From Rugosibacter aromaticivorans (GTDB lineage Bacteria; Pseudomonadota; Gammaproteobacteria; Burkholderiales; Rhodocyclaceae): 64,000 bases of DNA. Within the stretch, counting starts at the first letter, position 1; every line of letters starts with the position of its first letter. The stretch covers positions 992,001-1,056,000 of the forward strand of contig NZ_CP010554.1 of NCBI RefSeq assembly GCF_000934545.1, read 5' to 3'. The translations under genes and the position numbers were made by a program. This document shows positions 26,567-59,988 of the stretch, piece after piece. The notes under the pieces are model-generated. The model saw only the letters and a list, made by a program, of their open reading frames with translations. It ran no database searches and was not told the DNA's origin.

Positions 26567-27013
26567 GCTTTGTTATTTCCCCCTGTTAGGGTGAAATTCT
26601 AAAGGCATGACGACATTCAGGCTATTGTCGTGTGCTGTAGCGGATGACTGGGGGGATACGGTTGTCAGCGTTGCAGGAGTGCAACCAGACAGAAACCGCA
26701 GTGCAACTTCGGTTCCGGTGCTGATGTGCTTTGCGTCCCGCGTGAGTATCTGCCGAGTACCTACAAAAATGTATGGCTCCACCGCTCTCGGAAACTCCAA
26801 TCCACAGTCGGCGAGTGTCGGAACATGCACATTCTCAACGCTCGATCGATCCCGCGCGCTCGAAACGTAACCTAAAAGTACGCATTTCAACCGCCGAAAG
26901 GATGTAGCCGCTGATAAAAGTTCTGGCATGCATGCCCGTGCCACGAACTCCATTTTTCCACCCCGATCCCGACGAGTACCGGTTTGTCCGCATGAACGTG
27001 GAGGAGTCTGGTT
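26567..27013. other. Regulatory gap between helicase and repA
   Basis: About 450 bases separating divergent genes. It holds dyad copy A (26861-26889) and the repA ribosome binding site GAGGAG at 27001. Open frames exist on both strands (26607-26870 plus, 26573-27136 minus, 26932-27138 plus) but none has a recognisable domain, and the minus frame runs through the dyad and the repA signals. I do not call a gene here. The short plus frame from ATG 26932 overlaps the repA start and might be a leader peptide, which I cannot confirm. Confidence 0.4.
26861..26889. promoter_or_regulatory. Transfer-type 29-bp dyad, copy A
   Basis: Left arm CGAAACGTA, right arm CGCATTTCA, 11 bases apart, with CCT and AG-type bases in the middle as in the other copies (28243, 34398, 55721, 59960). 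It lies 124 bases before the repA TTG. This is the most degenerate copy. Confidence 0.6.
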
Positions 27014-27901
27014 TTGACCGGCTTGTCGCGTGCCGGCAAGCTGATTGCTCTCGCTTCCGAAATCAACGATATCGAGGTCGATGCTGGATCGCTCGCCTTC
27101 ATGGGTCAAGCACTTGTCCAGACAACATTGCCCCATAGCGATCCCGGGGTGCCATTCTTCGAACGGACGAACGGTGCGGTGTCACTGTCGATCATCGCAA
27201 ACCCCAGAATTGGTCTCCCGTTCGGCACCGTTCCAAGACTTCTCCTGGCATGGATCTGCACGGAAGCCGTCAAAACTAAGTCGCCGATGCTTGGCCTCGG
27301 GAAAAGTCAAAACGAGTTCCTGCGCAAGCTCGGGATGCGAACTGACGGTCGCGACTGCCAGCGGCTTCGCGCCCAGTCCCTGAAGCTTTTCTCCTCAATG
27401 CTGTCCATTACCTATCAAAGTCATGGGCGGTTTGGACTGAAAAACATGCCTATTGCCGATGAGGCATTTGTGCTGTGGGATCCCCATCGGCCTGATGACC
27501 GGATGCTGTGGGAAAGCACACTCAAGCTGTCGAGCGAATTTTTTCGGAACGTGACGGAGTCGCCGGTGCCGATCGACATGCGCGTGTTGCACGCACTCTC
27601 CAAGTCCCCCTTTGCGATGGACGTCTACTCCTGGCTGGTCTACCGGATATTTCTCCTGCGAGTCACCAACCGTCCGAGTGTCCTCATACCATGGAAGTCA
27701 TTGAAGCTTCAGTTCGGTGCTGATTACAGCGATACGCCCCGCGGGTTGCTGGACTTCAAAAAGCGATTTCTCCAGAGACTCAAGGAGGCGTTGCTCTTCT
27801 ATCCCGAGGCCAACGTTTCAGCGCAGGACACGGGGCTCCTTGTGGTCGCCAGCCGATTGCGTATCCGCCATACAGGTGGCGCACGGCTTTCTTCGTTGTA
27901 G
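27014..27901 (+). CDS. repA: Plasmid replication initiator RepA
   Basis: A 295-residue initiator of the RepA_C family. Family landmarks are an opening GKLIALASEI helix and LAFMGQALVQTTLPHSDPG near residue 27, FGTVPRLLLAWICTEAVKTKS near 75, LFSSMLSITY, and the C-terminal VPIDMRVLHALSKSPFAMDVYSWLVYR with IPWKSLKLQFGADY and FKKRFLQRLKEALLFYP. It should bind the iterons located 160-300 bases downstream and recruit DnaA. The start is a TTG with GAGGAG seven bases upstream; an in-frame TGA at 26993 excludes any earlier start. The gene is preceded by transfer-type dyad copy A, so replication and conjugation may share control. Confidence 0.88.
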   Translation: MTGLSRAGKLIALASEINDIEVDAGSLAFMGQALVQTTLPHSDPGVPFFERTNGAVSLSIIANPRIGLPFGTVPRLLLAWICTEAVKTKSPMLGLGKSQNEFLRKLGMRTDGRDCQRLRAQSLKLFSSMLSITYQSHGRFGLKNMPIADEAFVLWDPHRPDDRMLWESTLKLSSEFFRNVTESPVPIDMRVLHALSKSPFAMDVYSWLVYRIFLLRVTNRPSVLIPWKSLKLQFGADYSDTPRGLLDFKKRFLQRLKEALLFYPEANVSAQDTGLLVVASRLRIRHTGGARLSSL

Positions 27902-27959
27902 CACTGCGCGATCAACCGGGTCTCGCTTGGTCTCGCTTGGAAACGCCGAGAGAATATCC

Positions 27960-27984
27960 ACAAGTAAACCGGCCCTTTACTTGT
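27960..27984. repeat. Inverted repeat downstream of repA
   Basis: ACAAGTAAA and TTTACTTGT, perfect nine-base arms around CCGGCCC. It could be a terminator-like hairpin for repA, a partial operator, or part of the origin. There is no T-run. Confidence 0.5.
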
Positions 27985-28063
27985 AAAGCTACATGCAAAA
28001 TTACATGCACTACTTGAGGAAGGCCTGAATGCCTTGCCAATCAAGGCTTGCAGCGTGGTCGAC

Positions 28064-28201
28064 GAGACAGATTTCACGTGATCATGAGACAGATTTCACA
28101 TGCTCTTGAGACCGTTTTCACGTGGATAACTTTGCAATTTCCATGGGATGCGCTGCTGGTCGGTGATTGCGAGAGATCGTCGTTGAGACCGTTTTCACGT
28201 G
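28064..28201 (+). repeat. RepA iterons, four direct repeats
   Basis: Four 17-base direct repeats of the form GAGAC(A/C)G(A/T)TTTCACGTG start at 28064, 28086, 28108 and 28185. The first three are spaced exactly 22 bases apart, two helical turns, and the fourth follows 77 bases later. Copies 3 and 4 run into GTGGATAAC, a near DnaA box. The phasing is typical of initiator-binding iterons. Confidence 0.85.
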
Positions 28202-28226
28202 GATAACTCGGATCAATAACTGCTTC

Positions 28227-28235
28227 TGTGGATAA
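28227..28235 (-). promoter_or_regulatory. DnaA box
   Basis: TGTGGATAA on the plus strand is the exact reverse complement of the TTATCCACA consensus. Two weaker relatives (GTGGATAAC preceded by C) lie at about 28122 and 28199, just after iterons 3 and 4. Confidence 0.7.
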
Positions 28236-28242
28236 CTTTTAT

Positions 28243-28271
28243 CGAAATGTGACCTGCCAAGGCGGATTTCG
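28243..28271. promoter_or_regulatory. Transfer-type 29-bp dyad, copy B
   Basis: Left arm CGAAATGTG, right arm CGGATTTCG, spaced by 11 bases that begin with ACCT and end with AAGG. It stands at the downstream edge of the origin, ahead of the coupling-protein genes that begin at 28497. Confidence 0.65.
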
Positions 28272-28496
28272 GAAGTTGCATATTTTCAGGAATCCGTAAG
28301 ATGAGTTGGGACAGAAGCCAAATTGACGTGAATTGCGTCCGATCTGGATGTCGCGGGGCCAGCCGGCGGTGCCCTAGGTTCAACACCGGCAATGCGAGGT
28401 CGTGTTAAGCCCAGAAATTGGTGCCTCCATCACGGCAGATCGCGTCGGCCGCCCCACGTGACGGGGCACTATCGAATTATGAGTAGGGGGACGAAT

Positions 28497-28913: not shown

Positions 28914-29203
28914 CGCGGATCAGTATCGAGCGTGCCCATCGTGTTTGGCTGGAAACTCAGGTGATCGACCACGGACCGAAGGGCGGCGCGAAATTCCGTT
29001 TCAAGGTCATCGAGCGGCTGTTTGTCGAGGACGAGTTCGATGCCGAAGACAGACTCCGCCGGGAGAAATCAGTCGCCTTCCCTGTTCTGATGATCGAGTA
29101 CGACAATGAGTCCGACTTTGCCAAACGGGCCATTACCCACTTCCAGAGAACTCACAGGAAGGGGTGCGGCCATCTTTCCTGGCCATCATCGAGCATCGGG
29201 TGA
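28904..29203 (+). CDS. Hypothetical protein in traD operon (99 aa)
   Basis: Soluble charged protein. Its ATG lies inside the end of the upstream membrane-protein gene and its TGA shares an A with the traD ATG, so all three are translated as one unit. The middle contains GGAKFRFKVIERLFVEDEFDAEDRL, suggesting a small beta sheet with an acidic helix. No known domain is recognised. Placement suggests a partner of the coupling protein; that is inference only. Confidence 0.65.
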   Translation: MALTRISIERAHRVWLETQVIDHGPKGGAKFRFKVIERLFVEDEFDAEDRLRREKSVAFPVLMIEYDNESDFAKRAITHFQRTHRKGCGHLSWPSSSIG

Positions 29204-31020
29204 TGGCTGTATCTTCTCCCTACGACTTTGAGGTCCCATGGCGCCCTAACTTCGAGGCGAAGATGGCAATTATCTGGGCCACAGGATCGGCGATCATTAT
29301 CCTGTTTTCCCTCGCTGTCCCGATGTTCTCCCAGTTTGCCGCCTTGCTCGCCATTGGGTGTGCGTTGGCGGCGGCCTACCGCGGATACCAGGCCTACAAA
29401 AGGCTGGTTGATGCCTCCCGTCTCAAGTTATTCGGGAAAGAGTTCATCGATTTGGCCGAATTGGAGAGGAAAGCGGGTCTGTCAGCCAAGCAAAAGGCCT
29501 TCTGGCTTGGGAAGGGGTTTCCCTGGACAGACATCGAGGCGACCAAGCTTCATACCCTGATTTCGCTTGGTGTTGTCAGAACCATTGGCAAAGCTGCGCA
29601 GCATACGGAAGGCGCTTACTGGATTCATGGCCTTGCCCCCGAAAGTGACTTGTATTCTGAACTCTCCCATCTGGTTGGACACACGCTGATCGTCGGCACG
29701 ACCCGCGTCGGGAAAACGCGCTTGTTCGACTTGCTCATCGCTCAGGCGATCTTCCGTGGTGAGACGGTCATCATCATCGACCCGAAGGGGGATCATGGGC
29801 TCGCCCAAAATGCCCGCGCAGCTTGTGAAGCCAGCGGGGCAGGGGATCGGTTCGTCTACTTTCATCCGGCCCATCCCGATCGATCCGCCTGCATTGATCC
29901 GTTACGCAACTGGAACCGGAAGACCGAGCTTGCCAGTCGCGTAGCGGCATTGATCCCCTCAGAAACCGGGGCGGATCCTTTCACGGCCTTTGGATGGAAA
30001 GTGCTCAACGACATTACGAACGGAATGATCGCCACGGGTCATCGGCCCAATCTGGTCCAGCTTCGACGGTATGTGGAAGGTGGTCCCGACAGCCTTCTTC
30101 AGCGGGCCTTGAAAGTCCATTTCTCGGCTCATGTAAAGGACTGGGAAAGCCGGGCAGCCTCCTATATCAAGCGCTACAAGGACCGTCTGCTGGAGGCTTA
30201 CATCACCTTCTATCAGGAAATCGCTATCCACGAGGCGCAGTCGGTTGATCTTGACGGCCTGATTTCGACCTACGAGCACAACCGTGATCACTTTCAGAAG
30301 ATGGTGGCTTCCTTGATCCCGATTCTTTCGATGCTGACCAGTGACCCGCTGCAGGAACTCCTGTCGCCAGATTTTGAGCCGGGTCACGAGAGGCTGGTAA
30401 CCGACATGTCGAAAATCATTCGCGGCAACAAGGTGGTCTACATCGGCCTGGATTCCCTTGCCGATTCAACTGTTGGTAGCGCCATCGGATCCATCATGCT
30501 CGCCGATCTTGCTGCCGTCGCGGGAGACCGCTACAACTACGGCATTGACTCGCTGACGCCCGTCAATCTGTTTATCGACGAAGCCGCCGAGGTGCTTAAC
30601 CAGCCCGCTATCCAGCTCATGAACAAGGGGGGTGGCGCTGATTTCCGGGTCACTATCGCTACGCAGACCTTCGCCGATTTTGCCAGCCGACTCGGGGACG
30701 AAAACAAGGCGCGGCAGGTCCTTGCCAACACCAACAACAAGATCGCCTTGCGCGTACTGGATTCCGAGACCCAGAAGTACATCGCGGAAGGGATGCCCGA
30801 AATCAAGGTTCGCTCAATGGCACTGAGGTATGGGCATAACGTCGATACCCACATTCACGACGAATACACCGCCTCCTACCAAGAACAGATTCTGGAAGAG
30901 GATGCGGAGCTGTTCCCCGCTGCCATGCTGGGCGAGCTCCCCCCTCTCCATTTCATCGCGCGTCTGTCAGGCGGGCGGACACTGAAAGGCCGTATTCCCA
31001 TCCTGCTGACGGAGCAATAA
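29203..31020 (+). CDS. traD: Type IV coupling protein TraD
   Basis: A 605-residue coupling ATPase of the SXT/TraD type. Two N-terminal membrane helices (about residues 24-65) precede the motor. Walker A is GTTRVGKT with Lys171, Walker B is VIIIDPKGD, and a second acidic motif is LFIDEAAEVL, followed by ATQTFADFASRLGDE. It links the relaxosome to the secretion channel and pumps the transfer strand. The ATG at 29203 overlaps the preceding stop and gives the family N-terminus (YDFEVPWRPNFEA); the frame is open back to 29164 without a good start. It overlaps the next gene by one base. Confidence 0.93.
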   Translation: MAVSSPYDFEVPWRPNFEAKMAIIWATGSAIIILFSLAVPMFSQFAALLAIGCALAAAYRGYQAYKRLVDASRLKLFGKEFIDLAELERKAGLSAKQKAFWLGKGFPWTDIEATKLHTLISLGVVRTIGKAAQHTEGAYWIHGLAPESDLYSELSHLVGHTLIVGTTRVGKTRLFDLLIAQAIFRGETVIIIDPKGDHGLAQNARAACEASGAGDRFVYFHPAHPDRSACIDPLRNWNRKTELASRVAALIPSETGADPFTAFGWKVLNDITNGMIATGHRPNLVQLRRYVEGGPDSLLQRALKVHFSAHVKDWESRAASYIKRYKDRLLEAYITFYQEIAIHEAQSVDLDGLISTYEHNRDHFQKMVASLIPILSMLTSDPLQELLSPDFEPGHERLVTDMSKIIRGNKVVYIGLDSLADSTVGSAIGSIMLADLAAVAGDRYNYGIDSLTPVNLFIDEAAEVLNQPAIQLMNKGGGADFRVTIATQTFADFASRLGDENKARQVLANTNNKIALRVLDSETQKYIAEGMPEIKVRSMALRYGHNVDTHIHDEYTASYQEQILEEDAELFPAAMLGELPPLHFIARLSGGRTLKGRIPILLTEQ

Positions 31021-34238: not shown

Positions 34239-34422
34239 AGGCGCCACGCGGTGATTTTGGTCGAACTGCTAGCTCGGTGAGACCATCGAGATCGTGCAGA
34301 GCAACAGAGAAAGGTCTCTCGATCAACCGAGTTCCCTTCTCGCTACAGATAAGACGGTCACAAGTTCCACAAGTCCAAATAGCAAGCCGCCGGTAACCGA
34401 AATCCGTCCTTAAAGGTCGCAT
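34201..34422 (-). CDS. Doubtful small ORF opposite tra promoter
   Basis: A 73-codon frame on the minus strand containing WTCGTCDRLICSEKG, which could bind zinc, and an otherwise plausible composition. However, its 3' end overlaps the SH3-protein gene and its ATG lies inside dyad copy C. It may be a genuine convergent gene or simply a shadow of the promoter region. No family recognised. Confidence 0.28.
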   Translation of the reverse strand: MRPLRTDFGYRRLAIWTCGTCDRLICSEKGTRLIERPFSVALHDLDGLTELAVRPKSPRGASIAYELHFEHDA

Positions 34423-34426
34423 TTCG
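34398..34426. promoter_or_regulatory. Transfer-type 29-bp dyad, copy C
   Basis: Left arm CGAAATCCG, right arm CGCATTTCG, 11 bases apart, with the inner bases CCTTAAAGG themselves symmetrical. It ends 29 bases before the first gene of the main transfer operon. This is one of the most symmetrical copies. Confidence 0.72.
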
Positions 34427-34455
34427 GCGACGCAGCATTGGTCTGACTTCCTACC

Positions 34456-34884
34456 ATGGCAGTCATGACTCGTGCCCTGTTTGCTATCCTCATTCTGCCA
34501 ATGGCATTTCCATGTCAGGCTACCTGCTTCGAACAAGCAGGTAGCCGATATGGCGTTGCTCCGACTCTGCTCAAGGCCATCTCGGCGGTCGAGTCGGGCT
34601 TCAATCCTGTGGCACGCAATCGCAACCGCGATGGCTCGGAAGATCTGGGGCACATGCAAGTCAACAGCCGCTGGTTGGGCGCGCTGTCGTCCTATGGCAT
34701 TGGCCGGGATCAGTTATTCGACCCCTGCATCAACACCTATGTCGGCGCCTGGATCCTCGCGCAAAACATCAGCCGCCTCGGCTACGGCTGGGATGCGATT
34801 GGGGCCTATAACGCTCGCTCACCGGAAAAGCGCGCGGCCTATGCCCGCCGGATCGCCGCGAAGGTCAAGGCATGGCGATCCTGA
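34456..34884 (+). CDS. Lytic transglycosylase (conjugative)
   Basis: A 142-residue exported muramidase of the SLT family. Residues 1-22 form a signal peptide; the catalytic glutamate is Glu46 in ISAVESGFNP; DLGHMQVNSRW and the GAYNAR motif follow. Enzymes of this kind cut peptidoglycan locally so that the secretion channel can be built. It is the first gene after dyad C and overlaps the next gene by 13 bases, placing it at the head of the main tra operon. It corresponds in role to the F-plasmid Orf169 and VirB1. Confidence 0.9.
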   Translation: MAVMTRALFAILILPMAFPCQATCFEQAGSRYGVAPTLLKAISAVESGFNPVARNRNRDGSEDLGHMQVNSRWLGALSSYGIGRDQLFDPCINTYVGAWILAQNISRLGYGWDAIGAYNARSPEKRAAYARRIAAKVKAWRS

Positions 34885-35501
34885 AGCATCTCGTCGTTCT
34901 TCTGCTCGTGACCTCGATTTTTCCGGGTTGCACAAGCCTGCCCGAGACAAATCCGGCACCGCAGGCACGAGAAGGCATCGCCTGGATTGAACGCCAGTTC
35001 AAGACCTGTACTGACAAAGACTGCCCGCCGCCTACGCGCAAGACGCTGGCGATAGTTGAACTTCCCGTTGCGCGGAAGGAAGCAACGCCTGTCGTGGCCG
35101 CAGTTCCTCCGACCGTATCTTCAGTCGCCCGCAGCGATGAGCCGGTAACGGCAGCCGTCCTCTTTGCATTTGGAAAAGACTTTCCCTCCGCCGATGGACA
35201 ACAGGCGCTCAAGCGTATCGCGGCGATCGCGGCGAACTTTCAACGCATCGAGCTTGAAGGCAGAACCGACGACATAGGCAGCAAAGCCTACAACGACCGC
35301 CTTGCCCAGAGGCGCGCCGATTTCGTCCATTCATGGCTCCTGAAGCATGGAGTCAACGCAGAAATAGTGGTCCGTGCCGAGGGGTTGTGCTGTTACCTCG
35401 ATACGGCACCCACCGAAACGTCACGCCGAAACAACCGGCGGGTCGAGGTGCGTCTTGTCAATCGGCAAGACGCGGTCAGCAACAGCAAGGGAGCGCAATG
35501 A
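34872..35501 (+). CDS. OmpA-family lipoprotein
   Basis: A 209-residue lipoprotein with lipobox FPGC (Cys20) after a hydrophobic leader. A Pro/Val-rich linker runs to about residue 90, and an OmpA-C domain follows (VLFAFGKDF, then IELEGRTDDIGSKAYNDRLAQRRADFV and NNRRVEVRLV), which should bind peptidoglycan. It may anchor the transfer apparatus to the cell wall. It overlaps the transglycosylase gene and is followed two bases later by the GTG of the next gene. OmpA-like proteins are not part of the classical F system but are seen in related elements. Confidence 0.82.
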   Translation: MAILKHLVVLLLVTSIFPGCTSLPETNPAPQAREGIAWIERQFKTCTDKDCPPPTRKTLAIVELPVARKEATPVVAAVPPTVSSVARSDEPVTAAVLFAFGKDFPSADGQQALKRIAAIAANFQRIELEGRTDDIGSKAYNDRLAQRRADFVHSWLLKHGVNAEIVVRAEGLCCYLDTAPTETSRRNNRRVEVRLVNRQDAVSNSKGAQ

Positions 35502-35502
35502 A

Positions 35503-35706
35503 GTGAAGTTACCTCACAACAAAGGCTTCATCCGTGACGTGGCCATCGCTGGCGGATTCATCGCCATCGGCATTCTCGCCCCGGGGTCGCCCATCGAAAA
35601 CGGATTCGAAGCCCATCTGGGTGGCATCTCGGTCGGCCTCGGCCTGGGATGGCTCATCAAGTGTTTTGTCGATCTCAAAGGGAGCAGTCATGCAAAGCAG
35701 TCGTAA
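35503..35706 (+). CDS. Small membrane protein before pilin gene
   Basis: About 67 residues from a GTG at 35503 with GGGAG roughly ten bases upstream. Two hydrophobic stretches (FIRDVAIAGGFIAIGILAPG and GGISVGLGLGWLIKCFVDL) suggest a small inner-membrane protein. It overlaps the start of traA by 17 bases, so it is translated as part of the pilin operon. The frame extends upstream to 35374 but without a sensible start. Family not recognised. Confidence 0.6.
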   Translation: MKLPHNKGFIRDVAIAGGFIAIGILAPGSPIENGFEAHLGGISVGLGLGWLIKCFVDLKGSSHAKQS

Positions 35707-35983
35707 ATGGATTCAGGGCGCACTGGCGCTCGTCCTGCTGGCCACCGCCACCGGCGCGCTGGCAGGGACCACCGGTACCGAGTTTCAGAGTCTCTACACA
35801 TGGTTGACGGGTTTGGTCCAAGGCTACTTTGGTAAAGCCGCAGCGGTGGCCGCCATTGGTCTCGGTGCGCTATTTTCGCTGGCGCGGTTGAATCCCATCG
35901 CCATTCTGTCTGGCATCGGCTTCGCCGTGTTCCTGCAGTACGCCCCAACCATTGCGTCCGGCATCCTGACCGCGACGATCTGA
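35690..35983 (+). CDS. traA: TraA-type pilin precursor
   Basis: A 97-residue propilin. A basic N-terminus and hydrophobic leader end at an ALAG-type cleavage site near residue 26, giving a mature pilin of about 71 residues with two hydrophobic helices (AAAVAAIGLGALFSLA and IAILSGIGFAVFLQYAPTIASGIL) joined by a short RLNP loop. Size, topology and position just ahead of traL fit the F/SXT pilin subunit. The ATG at 35690 is chosen because the longer frame starting at 35534 is only a shadow of the preceding gene. Confidence 0.85.
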   Translation: MQSSRKWIQGALALVLLATATGALAGTTGTEFQSLYTWLTGLVQGYFGKAAAVAAIGLGALFSLARLNPIAILSGIGFAVFLQYAPTIASGILTATI

Positions 35984-35999
35984 GGCCAAGGAACGCTGC

Positions 36000-36290
36000 G
36001 TGGACGAGACCGGCTACATCCCGAAATCCCTGGAGGCGCAGGAGCGCTTCCTGTGGTGGGACTTCGACCAGGCCATTCTGTTCATTCTGGTCATGGGGAT
36101 GGGGGTGGTCTCCGGCGCCATGGTGGCGGGAATGGTTTTCGGGGGGCTGGTTGCCTGGCAATACGGCCGGCTCAAGACCGGGAAGCACCCGAAGTTCGCA
36201 CTGCATGCGCTCTATTGGTGGCTGCCGAGCTGGATCGTAATTCGTGCTCGCGCGACTCCTCCATCCCATCATCGGTTTTTCCTGGGCTGA
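36000..36290 (+). CDS. traL: TraL pilus assembly protein
   Basis: A 96-residue membrane protein with the TraL opening (YIPKSLEAQERFLWWDFDQ), two membrane helices around residues 27-58, and the typical GKHPKFALHALYWWLPS ending. TraL corresponds to VirB3 and helps assemble the pilus at the inner membrane. Translation starts at a GTG at 36000 with AAGGAA upstream. It sits between the pilin and traE, as in F and SXT. Confidence 0.88.
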   Translation: MDETGYIPKSLEAQERFLWWDFDQAILFILVMGMGVVSGAMVAGMVFGGLVAWQYGRLKTGKHPKFALHALYWWLPSWIVIRARATPPSHHRFFLG

Positions 36291-36293
36291 CCA

Positions 36294-36896
36294 ATGAAGT
36301 TCAGCAAATTCACCGCCGAGCGGGACAACCAACGCGCAGAAATCCTGTTCATGCGCATCGCCGTCGGTGGTCTCGTGCTGGCCTTGCTCGCCAACGCCGG
36401 CGCATCGCTCAGCGTGGCGGGTTCGGAGAGAACCATTCTAGTGCCCCCAGAAGTGCACCAAACCTTCTGGGTCAGCGGCCAGAAAGTCTCTACGGAGTAC
36501 CTCCAGGAAATGGCCTACTGGTATTCAGGGCTTGCCCTCAATGTGACGCCGCATGTGGCGGACTACCAGAAGAATCTCTTTCTGAAATATGCCGCTCCGA
36601 GTGAATACGGGCGCCTTCAGGCCGAGTTTGGTGCAAGGACAGAGTTTATCCGCAAGAACAATGCCTCGACCCAGTTCTCGCCGCAATCGGTGACGCCGGA
36701 CGAGGCTGCCATGAAAGTGGCACTTACCGGCGTTCTCCTGACTTGGGTCGGGGACAAGAAAGCCTCTGAGAAGCAGACCACCTATGTCGTCGGCTTTCGA
36801 TATCTCAATGGGAGACTCCATGTATCCGAGTTCAAGGAAACCAGCGACCAGGATCCGTTTGGTGCCAGCAATGGCACTGGCGCTGCTCCTCGGTAG
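36294..36896 (+). CDS. traE: TraE (VirB5/VirB8-like) pilus assembly protein
   Basis: A 200-residue protein with one N-terminal membrane helix (IAVGGLVLALLANAGASLSV) and a periplasmic domain holding the TraE landmarks VPPEVHQTFWVSGQKVSTEYLQEMAYW and ALNVTPHVADYQKNLFLKYAAP. TraE is the VirB8-like assembly factor of F-type systems. Its last 77 bases overlap the start of traK, an unusually long overlap but supported by the traK ribosome binding site. Confidence 0.9.
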   Translation: MKFSKFTAERDNQRAEILFMRIAVGGLVLALLANAGASLSVAGSERTILVPPEVHQTFWVSGQKVSTEYLQEMAYWYSGLALNVTPHVADYQKNLFLKYAAPSEYGRLQAEFGARTEFIRKNNASTQFSPQSVTPDEAAMKVALTGVLLTWVGDKKASEKQTTYVVGFRYLNGRLHVSEFKETSDQDPFGASNGTGAAPR

Positions 36897-37554
36897 CGTT
36901 TCGGCGCCGTCCTTATCCGGGCAATATCTTGAGGGCAGTCCGGATGACGGGTTGACCGCCACCGTGTCACGCAGCGAGCCCAATCTGATACGGGTTGAAG
37001 GTCGCAAGATTCGCCGCATACAGGGCGTCGAGGGCGAATTTTTCGTCTCACCGGACAAAGAGACCGGCGCCGCCTATCTCAAGCCGAACACGGACAAGCC
37101 AATCTTCAGTGTTTTTGTCGCCGACGATGCCGGCCGTCACTGGAAGCTGATGCTCAAGGTCGCCGACGTGCCGGCCGAGACGCTGGTCATCCGAGATCGC
37201 AGTCGTTCGCGCGTCGAAGGGAGAGCATTCCTTGCCGACGAGTCGCGCAATGCCGCGATCCGTCGTGTGTTGCTGGCTTTGGCGCGGGATGCCGAGCCTG
37301 AGGATATGACCGCCAGAGAAACGCTGGTGATCGTTCCACTCTGGAACGAAGCCCGGTTTGTTCTTGTAAGGACACTGGAAGGCGCCTTGCTCGGGGAAAA
37401 ATACCAGCTGACCAATGTCTCTTCGTCGCGGATGGTCATCGACGAGCGCGAACTGTACCGACGCGGTGTCCTGGCGGTCATGGTGGACTCCCTCGAACTG
37501 GAACCGGGCGAGGCGACCAACGTCATGGTGGTATTGGAGGGGCGCGATGGCTGA
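36820..37554 (+). CDS. traK: TraK outer-membrane complex protein
   Basis: A 244-residue secreted protein, VirB9-like partner of TraB and TraV in the outer-membrane core. A signal peptide spans about residues 9-30; the body has repeated beta strands including EPNLIRVEGRKIRRIQGVEGEF and KPIFSVFVAD, and it ends with ELEPGEATNVMVVLEG. The ATG at 36820 has GGGAG five bases before it; an in-frame start at 36784 lacks such a site. It overlaps traE (77 bases) and traB (8 bases). Confidence 0.88.
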   Translation: MYPSSRKPATRIRLVPAMALALLLGSVSAPSLSGQYLEGSPDDGLTATVSRSEPNLIRVEGRKIRRIQGVEGEFFVSPDKETGAAYLKPNTDKPIFSVFVADDAGRHWKLMLKVADVPAETLVIRDRSRSRVEGRAFLADESRNAAIRRVLLALARDAEPEDMTARETLVIVPLWNEARFVLVRTLEGALLGEKYQLTNVSSSRMVIDERELYRRGVLAVMVDSLELEPGEATNVMVVLEGRDG

Positions 37555-38812
37555 GGCGCCCAAGAACCGGATTGCGACAGCGGTTTCCAACCTGTCGCCC
37601 AAGCGTCGCCAGTATCTGATACTTGGGCTCGGTGCGTCGGCTTTCGTGCTGCTCGTCTTCGGTGGCGTGGCGATCTGGGACAAACCTGTTCAGATCCCTC
37701 AAGGAATGTCCCAGGCCCGTCCGCAGCCCATGCCTATCAATGCTCCCGGCGCCCAAGCCGATCCGCGCGACATCTGGATGAGCAAGTCCTCGGAACAGAT
37801 GCGGCAGATGGAGGACATGATCCAGGGGTTGCGCCAGCAGGTCGATACCATCGAGAAAAAGCCGCCGGTCGCGAGCGATGTCCAATTTCCGGCAATTCCG
37901 TTACCCCCGGCACCAGCGCCGATGCCGCCCGAGGCACGGTCCATGGCTTTGCTACCGCCACCTCCCGTGACCCCGGAAGCTGGGAGTAAAACCAGTGAGC
38001 CGCTACCTGCGCCCAGACCTCCGGGGATTGCCTCATTCGAGGTGAGTGAGGGCAAGGTGATCGCCCCAGAAGTGGTTCAGAAAGCTGCCGAAAAGAAGGA
38101 CGGACGCAGCTATGTACCATCAGGTTCCTTTTTTCGGGCAGCGCTCCTAGGCGGACTGGATGCCCCTACTGGCGGCCAGGCGCAGAGCAATCCACACCCC
38201 GTCCTGATGCGGGCGCAGGACAACGCTTTTCTGCCTAACCGCTATCGATTCAAGGTCAAGGAATGCTTCGCCTTGGGTGCGAGCTACGGAGACATCAGTG
38301 CCGAGCGGGCCTACATCCGGCTCGAATCGATGTCCTGTGTGCGCCATGACGGCAAGGCCATCGATGTTCCCGTGAAAGGTTACGTTGTAGGCGAAGACGG
38401 CAAGGCCGGCATGCGTGGCCGGCTCGTCAGCAAGCAGGGACAAGTCCTGGCCAATGCCTTGCTGGCAGGGATTGGCGCCGGTATCGGGCAAGCCTTCCAA
38501 CAGAGCGCCACGACCGTGTCCACCAACCCACTAGGGTCGATCGGCACGGTGGATCCAGGCAAGCAATTCCAGGCGGGGGTCGGGACCGGCGTTGGCAAGG
38601 CGCTCGACCGTCTCTCCCAGTACTACATCACGCTCGCCGAAAAAATGTTCCCGATCATCGAGGTCGATGCCGGCCGCACGGTCGACGTGGTGTTCACCAA
38701 AGGCTTTTCGCTCGATACGGACAGCGCGGGAAGCGAGCCCGATACCTACACCGATATTTGGCGTCGGGGCCGCGAAGTTCAGAAGAAATCCATAGAACCC
38801 TACAAGGAGTGA
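37547..38812 (+). CDS. traB: TraB (VirB10-like) core protein
   Basis: A 421-residue scaffold. One N-terminal transmembrane helix (YLILGLGASAFVLLVFGGVAIW) is followed by a coiled coil and a Pro-rich linker (about residues 110-165), then the VirB10-type beta-barrel domain (SFFRAALLGGLDAPTGGQ, then YGDISAERAYIRLESMSCV and GRTVDVVFTKG). It spans from the inner to the outer membrane. GGAGG lies seven bases upstream of the ATG. The stop is three bases before the DsbC-like gene. Confidence 0.92.
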   Translation: MAEAPKNRIATAVSNLSPKRRQYLILGLGASAFVLLVFGGVAIWDKPVQIPQGMSQARPQPMPINAPGAQADPRDIWMSKSSEQMRQMEDMIQGLRQQVDTIEKKPPVASDVQFPAIPLPPAPAPMPPEARSMALLPPPPVTPEAGSKTSEPLPAPRPPGIASFEVSEGKVIAPEVVQKAAEKKDGRSYVPSGSFFRAALLGGLDAPTGGQAQSNPHPVLMRAQDNAFLPNRYRFKVKECFALGASYGDISAERAYIRLESMSCVRHDGKAIDVPVKGYVVGEDGKAGMRGRLVSKQGQVLANALLAGIGAGIGQAFQQSATTVSTNPLGSIGTVDPGKQFQAGVGTGVGKALDRLSQYYITLAEKMFPIIEVDAGRTVDVVFTKGFSLDTDSAGSEPDTYTDIWRRGREVQKKSIEPYKE

Positions 38813-38815
38813 CCC

Positions 38816-39544
38816 ATGCAAATAAATCGACCACCTGTTCAATGGCTGTCCGTATTGATGGCATTGATGCTGTCGATGGCGGCGCAGGCCGATGACGGCC
38901 TTGATAGCCTGGAAAAACGCCTCAAAGACATGTATCCGGCAACACGGATCGAGCGCGTCCAAACCTCGGAGATTCCGGCCCTGTTTGAAGTGACGATGGG
39001 CAAAAACTCGGCCTATACGGACGCGACCGGGCGCTATTTCGTCTTCGGTCATCTCTTCGACATGAAGACACAGCGCGACCTGACAGCTGAGCGCATGGAA
39101 AAGCAGCAACGCATCGATTTCGCCCAGTTGCCGCTGGGGGATGCCATCAAGACAGTGCGTGGCAAGGGGGAACGTGTGCTGGCAGTGTTTTCCGATCCGG
39201 ACTGCCCTTACTGCAAGCGGCTCGAAGCCGAGCTCGACAAGCTGAGCAATATCACCCTCTATACCTTTCCCTATCCCCTGGAAGGGTTGCACCCCGAGGC
39301 CGTGGACAAGTCCGTCGCTGTTTGGTGCGCGCCGGACCGCGCCCGCGCATGGTCCGATCTTATGAAATCCGGCACGGTCCCGGCGAGCCGGAAATGTGAA
39401 AACCCGATTCAACGGAACATCCAGCTAGCTCAGCGGCTGGGGATACAGGGAACACCGACCATGGTTTCCGCCGACGGACGCATGTTGCCCGGCGCTGCCC
39501 CCAGTGACCGTATTGAGCAATGGCTTGCCGAGAGTCGGCCATGA
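38816..39544 (+). CDS. DsbC-like periplasmic disulfide isomerase
   Basis: A 242-residue exported thioredoxin-fold protein. A signal peptide ends near residue 24; an N-terminal dimerisation region runs to about 80; the active site is DCPYC near residue 127, in VFSDPDCPYCKR; and a cis-proline loop is present in GTPTMV. DsbC-type proteins repair disulfides in the cysteine-rich transfer proteins such as TraU, TraN and TraH. A homologue lies in the same place in SXT. It overlaps traV by four bases (ATGA). Confidence 0.9.
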   Translation: MQINRPPVQWLSVLMALMLSMAAQADDGLDSLEKRLKDMYPATRIERVQTSEIPALFEVTMGKNSAYTDATGRYFVFGHLFDMKTQRDLTAERMEKQQRIDFAQLPLGDAIKTVRGKGERVLAVFSDPDCPYCKRLEAELDKLSNITLYTFPYPLEGLHPEAVDKSVAVWCAPDRARAWSDLMKSGTVPASRKCENPIQRNIQLAQRLGIQGTPTMVSADGRMLPGAAPSDRIEQWLAESRP

Positions 39545-42674: not shown

Positions 42675-42686
42675 GGCAGATTAGTC

Positions 42687-43079: not shown

Positions 43080-43082
43080 CCA

Positions 43083-43874: not shown

Positions 43875-43882
43875 GGTTGCCC

Positions 43883-45307: not shown

Positions 45308-45323
45308 ATCGGGCAGAACCAGA

Positions 45324-50023: not shown

Positions 50024-50026
50024 ACC

Positions 50027-51616: not shown

Positions 51617-51639
51617 ACTTGGTCGACAAGGACACTATC

Positions 51640-52881: not shown

Positions 52882-52893
52882 GCAGGCGACGCA

Positions 52894-55720: not shown

Positions 55721-55749
55721 CGAAATGTGCCTTTGCTGGACGCATTTCG
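55721..55749. promoter_or_regulatory. Transfer-type 29-bp dyad, copy D
   Basis: Left arm CGAAATGTG, right arm CGCATTTCG, 11 bases apart. It ends 37 bases before the ATG of the signal peptidase that heads the relaxase operon, a spacing close to that of copy E. Confidence 0.72.
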
Positions 55750-55786
55750 AAAACTGCTTAACCGATTGCGCCAATACAGTGGCACC

Positions 55787-56269
55787 ATGCATATTCGTCT
55801 GTTCAATCTGTCTGGGCGCTGGTTTCCCGTTGTCCTTTGGTTCATGGCAGCCCATTTGGCATTTGGCCGTGCTTATCTCGTCGCCCTGAATCTCACGGAA
55901 AGTCTTCCTGGCACCATTTTTCTTGTCGAGAAAGGCGTTATGCCAGCACGCGGAGAGTTGGTTGCCTTCAGATGGGAGGCAAACTGGCCTTATCCCCACG
56001 GGAGCATTTTCGTCAAAAAGTTGATCGGACTGCCCGATTCAGTCGTCACGGCGAATGGCCGAGACTTTTTCGTAGATGGCACTTCAGTCGGCCGTGCGAA
56101 GGAAAGAGCCCGAACCGGAGAGCCGCTGGATATTGGTCTCATCGGCACAATTCCGGAAGGGCACTACTACGTTGCCGGCTCACATCCCGACAGCCTTGAT
56201 TCACGGTACCGGCTTACCGGCTGGGTTGGTCGGAATCAAATCATCGGGAAGGCGCATCGGATTTTCTGA
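55787..56269 (+). CDS. Conjugative S26 signal peptidase (TraF/TrsF-like)
   Basis: A 160-residue membrane peptidase of family S26C. One N-terminal helix precedes SLPGTIFLVEKG with the catalytic serine; the lysine lies in SIFVKKLIGLPDSVV; and GHYYVAGSHPDSLDSRY forms the third box. Related enzymes (TrhF, TraF of RP4, TrsF of SXT) process pilin or other transfer substrates. The ATG at 55787 is chosen; the frame is open further upstream but would pass through dyad D. It heads the relaxase operon. It should not be confused with the thioredoxin-like TraF at 43083. Confidence 0.87.
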   Translation: MHIRLFNLSGRWFPVVLWFMAAHLAFGRAYLVALNLTESLPGTIFLVEKGVMPARGELVAFRWEANWPYPHGSIFVKKLIGLPDSVVTANGRDFFVDGTSVGRAKERARTGEPLDIGLIGTIPEGHYYVAGSHPDSLDSRYRLTGWVGRNQIIGKAHRIF

Positions 56270-56270
56270 C

Positions 56271-56612: not shown

Positions 56613-56614
56613 CC

Positions 56615-58648
56615 TTGTTAAGTTTCATCAGAAAGACAGTTCGTCTTGATAGTCAAAATCAGGAACCTGTCGGCAAGCCCGCTGAGAATGACGCTGCCCA
56701 AACGGCAATCGACGAGGATATCCCTCGGTACCCACCGTTTATGAGGGGTCTGCCGGCCACGGACCCACACAAACTTATCGAGACTCAGCGCGAGTTAATT
56801 GGTCAGATTCGCGAGGCCGGACTCGCCTCTCCCGATATATTCGAGCAGTTCTACCTGGAGTCTCTGCGTCGATTTGCCTCCTACGCGCATCTCTTGCCGG
56901 CAAGCCAAACTCATCATCACAGGGGGGCAGGCGGGTTGCTTCGTCATGCTGCCGAGGTCGCCCTGTGGTCGCTTCAATCTGGGGATCGAGTGCTACTGCC
57001 TGGAGAGCAGGCGCCCCGGAGACGACGTGAGCTAGAACCACGGTGGCACCTTGCCGTGTTTCTAGCGGCACTTTGCCACGATGTGGGTAAGCCGGTGACA
57101 GACCTTGTCGTTACCAGCAGAGATGGAGCGAAAGTCTGGAACCCATTCGTGGAAGACCTTTATTCCTGGGCCAGCAGGCACGGCGTTGATCGGTACTTCC
57201 TGCATTGGCGTGAGAATCGTGCGAAAAAGCATACGGCGATTTCCTCTCTGATTGCTGAGCGCATCATCAGTCCAAAGGGCCTTGCCTGGATTGCGGAGGG
57301 GGACACAGAACTCGTACTCTGGATGATGGAAACAATTAACGGGCATCCCAGTGCTGAGAATCTGATACATGATCTCGTGATCCGCTCAGACCAGGTCAGT
57401 GTCGAACGAGACCTGCGAAATCTTGGTGTTGCGTTTACCGGCTATGAGATCGGTCTTCCGGTGGAACGGTTCCTGGTGGACATCATGCGCAGACTTGTCC
57501 GGGATGGAACCTGGGGAATCAATGAACCTGGCTCACGCCTCTGGCTCATTGACGGGTATCTCTATTTAATCTGGCCTGCGGCAGGCGAAGAAATGGCGGC
57601 CATCATTAATCAGGAAAAAATTCCGGGCTTGCCACGAACCCCGAACAGCATTCTGGACATGCTCGTTGATCGGAAGCTGGCGAATGTTCGCGAGGATCGG
57701 ACTGACGGGAATCGCTACTGGGTGATTGCCCCCGATGTGCTAGCCGAGAAGATACCCAATATCCGACTGACTGCCATCAGGTTGCGTGATGCTGCTCTGG
57801 TCATCGATCCAGCCCCATTCTCGGTCCCTGGAAAAATTCTCGACCTGGAGGAAATTCCCAAAAAGATGCCAAGTATCTCTTCTCCAAAATTGCCTGCCGA
57901 TGCGGAGCCCGCAGTGCCACCAGCGCCCATCAGGGCACCGGTTCAATCCGAAAAGGTGAATGCCAAACCACCGGAAGAAGTTGTCGATCGGCTCGACGGA
58001 CCTGTCGGCGAAGCACTGAAGGCACTTGCCGAAGACATTCAAACCGGCGAAAAATCATCCGAGACATTGGCTCACATCGACTCCTCCGGTGTGCTGTGTC
58101 TCAAGTGGCCAGATGCGCTCAATGGCTATGGGTTGGAGAACAAATCGATTCTTGATGAGCTGTCGCGCCGAAACTGGCTGGTTCTTGATCCATTGTCGCC
58201 GTTTCGCAAGGTGGTGGAGATCGAGATCGACGGTGGCAAGACGTGGAAGGTTGTTCGGCTTCAGCCGGTGGTGAAACAGCTCATGGCGATCGGGAAAACG
58301 CCGCCAGAACCATCAACCGTATCGATATCATCCGCTGATCCTGTTCAGTTACCCAAGCCAGTTCAGGGCGAGATTGAGGGAATTGGTGAAGACACGCGAC
58401 TTGCATTGATACAAAGTATCGTCACAACCTTGCGGGAAGGAGTGAGAGAAGGCATCCTAACGGCAGATGCGGATGGAGCCTTCGTCTGGATTCAATCCCG
58501 GAAAGCTGAGCCTTTCTTGGTAGAGCGACTCCAGGTAAATCGAATGTCAATAATGCGTTTGGGCAGCGTCGTTCCTGACGTGTTTATGTGTCAGACGCGA
58601 AAAAAAGCACATTCCTATCGAATACCGGCCACGCCGTCAGTAGGGTAA
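56615..58648 (+). CDS. traI: MOBH relaxase TraI (TraI_2)
   Basis: A 677-residue relaxase of the MOBH type. The TraI_2 domain shows HHHRGAGGLLRHAAE near residue 100 (the three-histidine metal site) and an HD pair in LCHDVGKPV near 154. A Pro-rich linker (about 420-450) separates it from a C-terminal TraI_2_C domain (LCLKWPDALNGYGLENKSILDELSRRNWL, then VNRMSIMRLG). MOBH relaxases nick oriT through the HD/HHH site rather than a tyrosine, as in SXT and R27. The start is a TTG with GGGA upstream; no better start is available. oriT itself was not located. Confidence 0.92.
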   Translation: MLSFIRKTVRLDSQNQEPVGKPAENDAAQTAIDEDIPRYPPFMRGLPATDPHKLIETQRELIGQIREAGLASPDIFEQFYLESLRRFASYAHLLPASQTHHHRGAGGLLRHAAEVALWSLQSGDRVLLPGEQAPRRRRELEPRWHLAVFLAALCHDVGKPVTDLVVTSRDGAKVWNPFVEDLYSWASRHGVDRYFLHWRENRAKKHTAISSLIAERIISPKGLAWIAEGDTELVLWMMETINGHPSAENLIHDLVIRSDQVSVERDLRNLGVAFTGYEIGLPVERFLVDIMRRLVRDGTWGINEPGSRLWLIDGYLYLIWPAAGEEMAAIINQEKIPGLPRTPNSILDMLVDRKLANVREDRTDGNRYWVIAPDVLAEKIPNIRLTAIRLRDAALVIDPAPFSVPGKILDLEEIPKKMPSISSPKLPADAEPAVPPAPIRAPVQSEKVNAKPPEEVVDRLDGPVGEALKALAEDIQTGEKSSETLAHIDSSGVLCLKWPDALNGYGLENKSILDELSRRNWLVLDPLSPFRKVVEIEIDGGKTWKVVRLQPVVKQLMAIGKTPPEPSTVSISSADPVQLPKPVQGEIEGIGEDTRLALIQSIVTTLREGVREGILTADADGAFVWIQSRKAEPFLVERLQVNRMSIMRLGSVVPDVFMCQTRKKAHSYRIPATPSVG

Positions 58649-58660
58649 ATTATTCAGAGA

Positions 58661-59533
58661 ATGCACACGCTCCAGCGAACAGAAGTTGATCGCTTTCTTG
58701 CCAGCGGCCACTACGACAACGCCTTTGAGACTTGGCCAGGCGATACGTTCGTGGAACGTGCGACGTGCGGGAATGCAGCATTGCGCAGCGTACTCATTTC
58801 AGAGGTACTGCAGCGGACCGGGCGTGCAGCCGTCCCCGCATTCCTCGAAAATGCCGACTTGAAGGTGTTCGCCCACGCGAAACTTGCGCCCATGGTGCAA
58901 GGGTTGTTCCCGCAGCGGGAACGCATGATCGTCCTCGAAAGGCTTGAGCGTTCTGTCGTCTTTCTCACGCCGGCGACAATAGCGAATATTCTCGAAAAAA
59001 CGCCTTGGCTCAAGACAGCGTGGAATCTGGCAAATCTTTACCTCACAAGCTTTGATGCAAAACGGCTCTCCGACGATGCGCCAAATATTGTTGGCCTGAG
59101 CGAAGAGACGACCTGCTATGTTTCCGTCGAGTATTTTGATGCCAACAACCGCTTCGACGATTATGTGGTTCACGAGGCTGCCCACATTTTTCACAACTGC
59201 AAGCGAGAAACGCTCGGGCTGAACGCGACTCGTCATCGGGAGTGGCTGCTCGAGATTGATTTCGCCAAACGAGAAACGTTTGCCTATGCCTGCGAGGCTT
59301 ACAGCCGAATTCTTGAGCTTGGCGAAACTCGTTCAACTCGAAACCGGCTTCTGTCAGAGCTTGCGGACGGGGCGATGCCGCCGGACGAGCGGGTACATGG
59401 TGCCGAGTATGTGGATATTCTGCGGGAGGCGGTTGCCGCCAGGAACGGCTGGAAATCCATCCGCGAGCGATGCTCTCCCTCCAGGTCACCCCGCCGCGAA
59501 CAAGCGACCGAGAGTCGATCTACCCCGACTTAG
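58661..59533 (+). CDS. Putative zinc metallopeptidase downstream of traI
   Basis: A 290-residue soluble protein with HEAAH at 171-175 (YVVHEAAHIFHN) and a following helix rich in Glu (KRETFAYACEAYSRI) that could supply the third zinc ligand. Otherwise unlike known transfer proteins. It starts 13 bases after traI and probably ends that operon. It converges on the DUF3024 gene with a four-base overlap. Function unknown; the position suggests a role in establishing the element or in the recipient cell, which is inference only. Confidence 0.68.
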   Translation: MHTLQRTEVDRFLASGHYDNAFETWPGDTFVERATCGNAALRSVLISEVLQRTGRAAVPAFLENADLKVFAHAKLAPMVQGLFPQRERMIVLERLERSVVFLTPATIANILEKTPWLKTAWNLANLYLTSFDAKRLSDDAPNIVGLSEETTCYVSVEYFDANNRFDDYVVHEAAHIFHNCKRETLGLNATRHREWLLEIDFAKRETFAYACEAYSRILELGETRSTRNRLLSELADGAMPPDERVHGAEYVDILREAVAARNGWKSIRERCSPSRSPRREQATESRSTPT

Positions 59534-59871
59534 CCCCAGAAAATTCCTGTCTGATCGGCATCCAGGGCCGCAAGCAGAGTGTCGAGGTCACGAGACGGCT
59601 TTGCTTGGTGATATCGATGCCACTTCGAGTTTCTGTCCGAGCAGAAAAGACCCCAGCTGCCACTATCTTCATACCGAAATTGAGCGATAGGAACGGTCGC
59701 CCACGTCCCCGGCTGTGAAAACGCAATACGTTCTTCATTGAGCGTCACGCTGTTTCCGCGAATGACGTAACTCAACCTCACCTGATCCCGTACATGGTGC
59801 GGAATTCTCTTCTCGCAGTAAGCTCCGAGTTTGATTTCAACCAACCGTTTGGTCAGTACTGGCAATGCCAC
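59530..59871 (-). CDS. DUF3024 protein
   Basis: A 113-residue protein matching the DUF3024 pattern: LVEIKLGAYCEKRIPHHVRDQVRLSYVIRGNSVTLNEERI and later GLFCSDRNSKWHRY. The family has no known function and is common on plasmids. It is transcribed against the surrounding operon and away from traW; dyad copy E lies 89 bases upstream of its start, so it might share that promoter region. Confidence 0.75.
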   Translation of the reverse strand: MALPVLTKRLVEIKLGAYCEKRIPHHVRDQVRLSYVIRGNSVTLNEERIAFSQPGTWATVPIAQFRYEDSGSWGLFCSDRNSKWHRYHQAKPSRDLDTLLAALDADQTGIFWG

Positions 59872-59959
59872 CGATTGCTCCCTCCAAGGTCAGATGCGAT
59901 GCTACCGCAGCATGTCCTGATTATTGAAGACGCATTGAAGCTGATGTGACTTGCGGTGC

Positions 59960-59988
59960 CGAAATGCGCCCGAAAAAGGCGCATTTCA
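59960..59988. promoter_or_regulatory. Transfer-type 29-bp dyad, copy E
   Basis: Left arm CGAAATGCG, right arm CGCATTTCA, with inner bases that extend the symmetry to GAAATGCGCC/GGCGCATTTC. It ends 39 bases before the traW ATG and is the most perfect copy. Confidence 0.74.

Follow-up and report, generated by a model that had tools for sequence, protein, structure and literature searches.

A 29-bp palindrome ahead of transfer, replication and excision genes in an integrative and conjugative element of Rugosibacter aromaticivorans: probable box of an element-encoded FlhDC-like activator

In the literature searched, as far as the available parts of the papers go, FlhDC-kind master activators with a mapped binding box belong to gammaproteobacterial elements, namely SXT/R391 integrative and conjugative elements (ICEs) and the IncC/SGI1 group. 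Here we analyse a 64,000-nt stretch of the Rugosibacter aromaticivorans genome (contig NZ_CP010554.1, positions 992001-1056000; the window), part of a ~117 kb ICE adjoining guaA, in which a first-pass annotation had noticed a repeated 29-base dyad. We consider this dyad the probable binding box of an element-encoded FlhD/FlhC-like activator, a counterpart of SetCD and AcaCD (probability about 0.88, judged from sequence). The box, its spacing, its conservation, its co-occurrence with the FlhC-like gene and the co-variation of its arms with the FlhC clade were observed directly.

In SXT/R391 ICEs, the available sections describe SetCD as an ICE-encoded FlhDC-like activator with sites directly upstream of a degenerate -35, which drives the tra operons, xis, mobI and the parM-like srpM in an element that also carries a CI-like repressor gene; its 19-bp box is said there to differ drastically from the FlhDC and AcaCD boxes (PMC4344509, PMC4542580, PMC4489591). 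AcaCD of IncC plasmids and SGI1 is, in the parts available, likewise FlhDC-like, with a site that replaces an absent -35 box, as here, and a regulon that also holds parM-like and bet/exo genes (PMC4207636, PMC4605294, PMC5058578); it recognises the 13-bp inverted repeat GCCCTAAAAGGGC, and its footprint of ~40 bp lies 31 bp upstream of the start (PMC4605294). Flagellar FlhD4C2 belongs to the same protein family (PF05280) as the element's FlhC-like protein. As described in the available text, its targets are mainly flagellar operons, unlike the element's regulon, and its box is AAYGSSNNAAATAGCG-N10-12-CGCTATTTNNSSCRTT, reaching 42-44 bp with further outer arms (PMC9962212). A 2015 review, in the part available, expected more activators with unknown motifs; it places AqaCD, AsaCD and SgaCD, FlhCD-like genes, near TraG, SrpRM and MobI genes, as here, in Enterobacteriaceae and Vibrionaceae, unlike the present relatives, and gives no binding motif for them in the section that lists them (PMC4542580).

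The present dyad resembles two of these boxes in part. Its arms, AAATGCG...CGCATTT, are like the flagellar arms AAATAGCG-N10-12-CGCTATTT with similar spacing (PMC9962212), and its core shares the GNCC-N5-GGNC form with the AcaCD repeat (PMC4605294), as far as those sources were available. Relative to the AcaCD box it adds symmetric arms, CGAAAT/ATTTCG, and the activator is distant from AcaCD. The first-pass statement that no operator of this form has been published is therefore only partly true: arms and core each resemble published boxes, and the whole 29-bp box was not among the published motifs found by literature searches that left supplements and subscription papers outside their scope. 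The parM/mobI pair of the element recalls srpM and mobI of SXT/R391, which the available text describes as divergent with SetCD-dependent promoters (PMC4489591); back-to-back motifs are described at a divergent region of those ICEs, whereas the present ICE has one shared palindrome. The present ICE further differs from SXT/R391 in its dyad-bearing repA and in a CI-like protein with Ala and Arg at the UmuD Ser and Lys positions. SXT/R391 features are nevertheless present, namely an SXT-type TraD and a MobI (PF19456). SXT itself is MobH and F-type, and SXT/R391 ICEs integrate at prfC. Because its integrase end adjoins guaA instead, the present ICE is a relative of that family, not a member.

The dyad and its distance to a -10 hexamer

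All five copies of the first-pass annotation, at window positions 26861, 28243, 34398, 55721 and 59960, were recovered, each exactly 29 bases long. Their placement was confirmed: they stand ahead of repA, hyp173-hyp99-traD, SLT-OmpA-traA...traG, S26-mobH and traW-traU-trbC-traN.

Window 26861..26889, + strand: dyad 1, CGAAACGTAACCTAAAAGTACGCATTTCA; ahead of repA; same position in five related elements
Window 26915..26920, + strand: -10-like hexamer TAAAAG, 25 nt after dyad 1; weakest of the five; TAAAAG, TAAAAC or TACAAG there in five relatives
Window 28243..28271, + strand: dyad 2, CGAAATGTGACCTGCCAAGGCGGATTTCG; ahead of hyp173-hyp99-traD-DUF4400
Window 28297..28302, + strand: -10-like hexamer TAAGAT, 25 nt after dyad 2
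Window 34398..34426, + strand: dyad 3, CGAAATCCGTCCTTAAAGGTCGCATTTCG; ahead of the main tra operon
Window 34452..34457, + strand: -10-like hexamer TACCAT, 25 nt after dyad 3; ATG 7 nt later (34465)
Window 55721..55749, + strand: dyad 4, CGAAATGTGCCTTTGCTGGACGCATTTCG; ahead of the S26 peptidase and MobH relaxase genes
Window 55775..55780, + strand: -10-like hexamer TACAGT, 25 nt after dyad 4; ATG 6 nt later (55787)
Window 59960..59988, + strand: dyad 5, CGAAATGCGCCCGAAAAAGGCGCATTTCA; ahead of traW-traU-trbC-traN
Window 60014..60019, + strand: -10-like hexamer CAGAAT, 25 nt after dyad 5; ATG 8 nt later (60028)

The consensus first proposed, CGAAATGYG-N11-CGCATTTCG, is exact at 55721 alone (one mismatch at 28243, 34398 and 59960, three at 26861) and misses an inner CC-N5-GG symmetry; an improved form is YGAAATGYGNCC-N5-GGNCRCATTTCR. 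Allowing up to three mismatches, 11 strand-matches at 6 places were found against a shuffle mean of 0.18 (maximum 2): the dyad is real and far above chance. The sixth place, window 18010, was treated as a chance match because it lies inside zorD, lacks the CC-N5-GG core and scores just 8.5 bits in a matrix scan.

That scan covered contig 920001-1090000 (170 kb, ~170,000 positions) with a matrix trained on eight strong sites, whose scores of 31-41 bits are thus in-sample (contig 950925, 991448, 1018861, 1020243, 1026398, 1047721, 1051960 and 1060777). The next scores were 21.9 bits at 968146, 18.0 at 948016, 16.1 at 953520 and 11.6 at 1005435. This search of the complete element, which the first-pass annotation had proposed as a check, adds three strong and two convincing weak copies outside the window, the weak sites 968146 and 948016 being kept because their -10 and their orthologous promoters agree. 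Two candidates were dropped: 953520, which falls within recT and has no -10 reaching 2 bits to either side, and 1005435, a low score inside a WYL-domain gene, despite TACCCT (3.3 bits) 25 nt off on the minus side. Under leave-one-out scoring the five window copies reach 28.8-38.8 bits, each within the best 8 of the ~170,000 positions. Across the 2.93 Mb genome the strict pattern (up to three mismatches) gave 8 matches per strand, all within the element, and a reversed control gave 0; a looser pattern gave 47 strand-matches against 15 in its control, mostly with three mismatches, and those beyond the element look like chance.

For the window copies, the mean -10 score at offset 25 was 4.1 bits, compared with a mean of -5.3 elsewhere and -2.9 at the next best of 60 offsets, and none of 2000 shuffles equalled it. 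Six further, non-window rows were not counted as a test, since they had been oriented by eye toward a visible -10. In five related elements, where the better side was taken at every offset alike, 41 of 42 dyads of at least 17 bits had, on one side or both, a -10 scoring 2 bits or more at offset 25, whereas the rate at other offsets was 2.9%; these 42 include orthologous promoters and are not 42 independent events. The sole miss (G069 1959399) carries TAAGAT at offset 24. The dyad is present at the same orthologous promoters in five relatives, the very positions from which, according to the first-pass annotation, its absence would have counted against shared control.

A logo of 51 sites (41 from relatives and 10 of the element's own at 17 bits or more) contained no TTGACA-like -35, and its promoter-proximal arm was better conserved than the distal one. 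Across 12 orthologous promoter groups, mean identity to the element was 77% in the distal arm, 72% in the core, 83% in the proximal arm and 94% in the -10, compared with 43% in the 25-nt spacer (30-73%, traD highest) and 39-48% in the flanks. Because of the fixed 25-nt spacing and the missing -35, the dyad looks like an activator box rather than a repressor operator. By analogy, the layout in this DNA matches that of an activator that would substitute for a -35, as the available text describes for SetCD (PMC4344509) and AcaCD (PMC5058578).

As inverted repeats with a short loop, the dyads might also be read as terminators of transcription or as structured RNA. Their position upstream of the -10, however, would keep them out of transcripts from these promoters, and 10 of the 42 dyads in relatives have a -10 on both sides; we find this explanation barely credible.

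The candidate regulator and the predicted regulon

The first-pass annotation saw no obvious regulator in the window, which fits the position of the candidate pair, 18.9-19.7 kb before the first window base.

G000:C1:972302-972604, outside the window: flhD-like gene
G000:C1:972582-973073, outside the window: flhC-like gene
G000:C1:971573-972220 (L016:11573-12220), - strand: CI-like gene (HTH_3 + S24), divergent from flhD

Domain analysis assigned the FlhC-like protein to PF05280 (E=1.1e-12, 48.5 bits against a cut-off of 27). Near its C-terminus, C134, C137, C153 and C156, which we take to be the zinc ligands of FlhC, are invariant in 13 of 13 homologues, and the protein is related to the solved FlhC structures 8J56 and 2AVU. 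Its partner matched PF05247 at E=2.1e-4 and 21.9 bits, under the cut-off of 27, and is hence called FlhD-like; a profile built from 10 homologues reached solved FlhD proteins at E values of 0.008, 0.022 and 0.033, with one unrelated protein among them at 0.025. The flagellar NCBIfam equivalog cut-offs were not reached (48.4 of 216 bits for FlhC-like, 21.1 of 90 for FlhD-like); by these scores the two are relatives of the flagellar proteins, not the flagellar proteins themselves.

Comparison with nine other elements, several of whose stretches are incomplete so that absence weighs less than presence, singled out the same pair. For eight of the element's 110 open reading frames (ORFs), tblastn (E 1e-5) gave a match in every one of the nine, within the stretches fetched: FlhD, FlhC, DsbC, TraC, TraF, TraH, TraG and a 130-aa ORF of the tra operon that belongs to no family. 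FlhD and FlhC are the only recognised DNA-binding genes among them, and CI-like, RepA, ParM, AlpA and the other HTH genes each lacked a match in one or more of the nine. As in SetCD/AcaCD-type systems, an flhD-flhC-like pair lies in a conjugative element with F-type tra genes and a MobH relaxase, and a common motif stands beside a missing -35 at tra, excision and mobilisation promoters.

The CI-like gene, present in all five close relatives at 60-69% identity and encoding a clear DNA-binding domain, is a rival candidate: as a repressor it could bind the dyad and silence every operon directly. Yet no dyad lies between the CI-like gene and flhD, where such a repressor should act; the gene has no match in four distant elements that retain the 29-bp frame; and repression requires neither a -10 at exactly 25 nt nor the lack of a -35. 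We regard this as very unlikely. Aligned to UmuD, the CI-like protein has Ala at the GDSM serine and Arg at the KKL lysines, presumably the catalytic residues, with the same letters in six elements. It may therefore not cleave itself, and induction might bypass the SOS response.

Under the activator reading, the FlhD/FlhC-like complex would bind the 29-bp palindrome, whose centre falls near -52 on the assumption that transcription begins about 7 nt past the -10, and would substitute for the missing -35, thereby placing RNA polymerase on the -10 that begins exactly 25 nt past the dyad. Such a single switch would turn on conjugation (traD, main tra, S26-mobH, traW-N and mobI) together with replication (repA), partition (parM), excision (alpA), a primase-like gene and recombination functions, and the product of the CI-like gene divergent from flhD would probably repress it. 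From this arrangement we infer binding, activation, the sites where transcription starts, which genes share an operon, and repression by CI.

The predicted regulon follows the dyads and their -10s, which point at alpA, the primase-like gene 968335, repA, hyp173-hyp99-traD, SLT-tra, S26-mobH and traW-N. Another dyad points both ways, toward hyp234 and 951256 (an hyp234/recombination pair), and one lies between parM and mobI with -10s on both sides; being palindromic, a single box can act on two promoters that diverge from it. A further dyad and -10 stand at a gene for a 103-aa protein (1060718-1060407) with weak PrtN/HTH_17 matches. The alpA-side dyad recurs in G129a and G069 and in further stretches of G083 and G126, and was not found in the fetched stretches of G129b and G151. 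The first-pass proposal that one regulator controls replication and all transfer operons is well supported by inference, with two changes: the regulon is wider than stated and the regulator would be an activator, not a repressor.

One dyad lies beside parM and two beside repA and a probable oriV, as would be expected if the dyad were a centromere or a RepA/ParR site that falls near promoters merely because such regions are intergenic. The dyads, however, stand singly ahead of the individual operons along ~113 kb, nearly always 25 nt from a -10; moreover, none of the four distant elements has a match to RepA, and just one of them has a match to ParM. A partition or replication site is in our view highly improbable.

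Box variation and predicted leaderless starts in related elements

Among 199 sampled genomes of the family, eight carry at least five strict dyads, and six of these are exactly the six with an FlhC of at least 60% identity; all six hold at least six strict dyads. A search of 399 genomes of the order for FlhC returned 6 at E <= 1e-25, the element's own and five at 35-44% identity, with no further close relative among the 399. By tblastn (E 1e-5), 9 of 72,556 plasmid records matched the candidate activator, none from enterobacteria or vibrios. Record titles of the relatives name Rhodocyclaceae, Accumulibacter, Gallionella, Sulfuritalea and others.

Four elements (G019, G023, G050 and G148) form a distant clade, with FlhC 40-43% and TraC 71-75% identical. 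The GCATTTC dyad was not found in them. Instead, expectation-maximisation on 20 chosen upstream regions recovered a 29-wide palindrome with GCTTTTCG arms, in which GCTTTTC (CTTTTC) replaces GCATTTC and the 29-bp frame and 25-nt spacing are retained; widths of 17 and 23 gave no readable motif. Palindrome counting found GAAAT-N17-ATTTC in the two close elements tested (the present one and G083) and not in the four distant ones. With a distant-clade matrix trained without the -10, offset 25 was again the best of 60 (0.98, next -1.8).

We then compared 50 named loci of at most 20 kb around FlhC homologues, under a rule that requires nothing beyond C[N]TTTC, the larger part of the distal GAAA and, 25 nt away, a -10. 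Some loci repeat stretches already used (L162 = G151, L168 = G050, L174 = G148), so their sites are not new. In the clade with FlhC at 60% or more, the 13 loci yielded 22 sites, with arm letter A in 21 and G in one; 11 of the 13 loci had a site, 10 of them with A. The 17 loci at 37-44% yielded five sites in five loci, all with T, and the 20 loci at 33% or less none by this rule. Near-identical elements repeat, and distinct sequences number 15 in the close clade (14 with A) and four in the 37-44% clade. Dropping the -10 requirement left the arm letters mixed.

This co-variation also bears on whether the host's own FlhDC uses the dyad and so links transfer to motility. The outer arms do resemble the E. 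coli FlhDC box, as given in the available part of PMC9962212, and a host FlhC-like gene exists (G000:C1:526337, 23% identical to the element's). The arm letter, however, shifts with the element's FlhC clade, all 8 strict copies in the genome lie inside the element, and 106 of the 199 family genomes have some FlhC match when only eight have five or more strict dyads. Use by the host protein seems to us most improbable.

Several observations weigh against an FlhDC-like activator acting through the dyad. The FlhD match is weak. The upstream region of the flhDC operon has no dyad in six close elements (best score -4.6 bits or lower), and for this reason nothing shows autoregulation in this clade. 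Two dyad-cluster genomes, G126 (99% complete) and G157 (80% complete), lack a detected FlhC of at least 60%; the parts examined resemble fragments of the same element. Of the 20 highest-scoring distant-clade matrix hits, only 12 have a -10, and four of the eight misses straddle the flhD 5' end without a -10 at 25 nt (G019 46667, G148 536542, G023 240562 and G050 75389), which may come from conservation of the coding sequence or have another cause; upstream of flhD in G019, a weaker hit at 46591 (15.0 bits) does have one. By the locus rule, 12 of the 17 loci at 37-44% and 2 of the 13 close-clade loci yield no site, orthologous sites do not count as independent events, and a perfect dyad in G025 lacks a -10 at 25 nt. 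Finally, the cited papers, in the parts available, call the SetCD and AcaCD motifs unlike the FlhDC box. Given that verdict, the arm resemblance could be coincidence and the shared frame is our own reading.

A second regularity concerns the start codons. The first-pass gaps of 29-39 bases between dyad and start codon hold for the last three copies, at 29 (ATG 34456; the likelier ATG 34465 gives 38), 37 and 39. Relative to the -10, the ATG of the SLT, S26 and traW operons lies 7, 6 and 8 nt downstream in all 16 close-clade promoters examined. Three distant elements have it at 7 nt (SLT) and 6 nt (S26) in six of six cases, the next ATG being taken in place of an earlier printed start codon for G148 SLT and G023 S26; at G148 traW it lies at 6 nt, and the traW hits of G019, G023 and G050 have no -10. 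An ATG falls at 6-8 nt from 5.3% of positions by chance. Transcription usually starts 6-9 nt after a -10, so the 5' ends of these mRNAs would fall on the start codon or beside it, and the three tra operons appear, by prediction, to be leaderless. The SXT SetR mRNA is described as leaderless in the available part of PMC4542580; leaderless tra operons were not reported among the literature matches listed.

A broader proposal, to which we would give slightly less than even odds, is that FlhDC-type conjugation activators read one 29-bp frame, in which an AcaCD-like GNCC-N5-GGNC core is flanked by outer arms like those of the flagellar FlhDC box. The FlhC clade would determine the arm base (GCATTTC or GCTTTTC), which would then be a readable specificity code in a mostly betaproteobacterial superfamily of ICEs and plasmids; a single palindrome would fire two divergent promoters; and, the main transfer operons being leaderless in both clades, transfer expression would depend on leaderless initiation.

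The motif is a case of the kind the review anticipated. Its promoter geometry is exact, and it occurs in ICEs and plasmids of Rhodocyclaceae, Accumulibacter, Gallionella and relatives. With it, the transfer regulon of such elements can be predicted from sequence, and it offers a natural series of FlhC proteins with matching boxes for studying how FlhC chooses DNA. The box can also serve as a tag for locating satellite islands on the same switch, and the leaderless translation of conjugation genes becomes a testable question, given how consistently the predicted transcription start falls almost at the start codon.

Among stray dyads followed outside the main elements, no convincing satellite island borrowing the box emerged. 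Genomes with one to three strict matches include G158 (3) and G117 (2). The G083 dyad at 1494589 has the same sequence as the alpA-side site at 1505293, and the stretch around it repeats neighbouring ORFs as well; those of G023 (584679 and 593466), G126 (C16 1-60000 and C1 219001-239000) and G157 (C19 1-20000) lie in pieces of the same element type, and that of G187 lies on a 6-kb contig with an AlpA-like gene. G083:C1:1471000-1505000 holds cargo that resembles efflux pumps, by eye only. In G129:C1:1780001-2095000, two elements of the same family lie within about 300 kb, with FlhC 85% and 63% identical to the present one and the same box, and cross-activation between them is possible. A record titled Anaerolineaceae (L154, QZIJ01000036.1) carries an 86%-identical FlhC with matching boxes; we suspect mis-binning rather than a distant host.

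The host element and its cargo

The integrase end of the ICE directly adjoins guaA. A direct repeat in which 22 of 23 bases agree, beginning GACGGTATCCGTG, at 946252 and 1063137 (counted by eye from an alignment; one base longer and the last letter differs too), marks candidate ends that would give about 117 kb. A second repeat there, a 13-mer, is weaker.

Contig 944566-946134: guaA (NF000848, 822.5 bits)
Contig 946431-947660: tyrosine integrase gene
Contig 947701-947985: AlpA gene
Window 27014..27901, + strand: repA (RepA_C, PF04796)
Window 29164..31020, + strand: traD, coupling protein (TIGR03743 SXT_TraD, 612.9 bits, cut-off 366)
Window 34465..48146, + strand: main tra operon (SLT, OmpA, TraA-like, TraE, TraK, TraB, DsbC, TraV, TraC, TraF, TraH, TraG)
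Window 55787..56269, + strand: signal-peptidase-like gene (Peptidase_S26, PF10502), in the TrhF position
Window 56615..58648, + strand: MobH relaxase TraI (TraI_2; NF041494)
Window 60028..60651, + strand: traW (TIGR02743), likely start 60028

The gene content comprises the MobH relaxase, SXT-type TraD, TraE, TraK, TraB, DsbC, TraV, TraC, TraF, TraH and TraG, of which TraK, TraB, DsbC, TraF, TraH and TraG score under the NCBIfam cut-offs, together with TraW, TraU, TrbC, TraN, RepA, MobI (PF19456, E=6.1e-29), RecT, a DUF3799 protein, a primase-like protein and an actin-like ParM/PRTRC-D-like protein. Between repA and dyad 2, window 28064-28206 holds four iteron-like repeats of 22 nt, GAGACMGWTTTCACRTG, which probably mark oriV; GATAA follows two of the four.

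Cargo includes a Zorya type I system (window 14536-22853, - strand), whose ZorA, ZorB, ZorC and ZorD have best PADLOC matches of 769.5, 344.3, 631.4 and 1506.5 bits. Between the main tra operon and the relaxase genes lies a CBASS-type cluster (window 50027-55099, + strand) of a SAVED/HNH endonuclease effector, an oligonucleotide cyclase, E1-E2 and JAB. An IrrE-type peptidase gene with an HTH_3 partner and three small family-less ORFs occupies window 48314-50614 (- strand), also between transfer operons.

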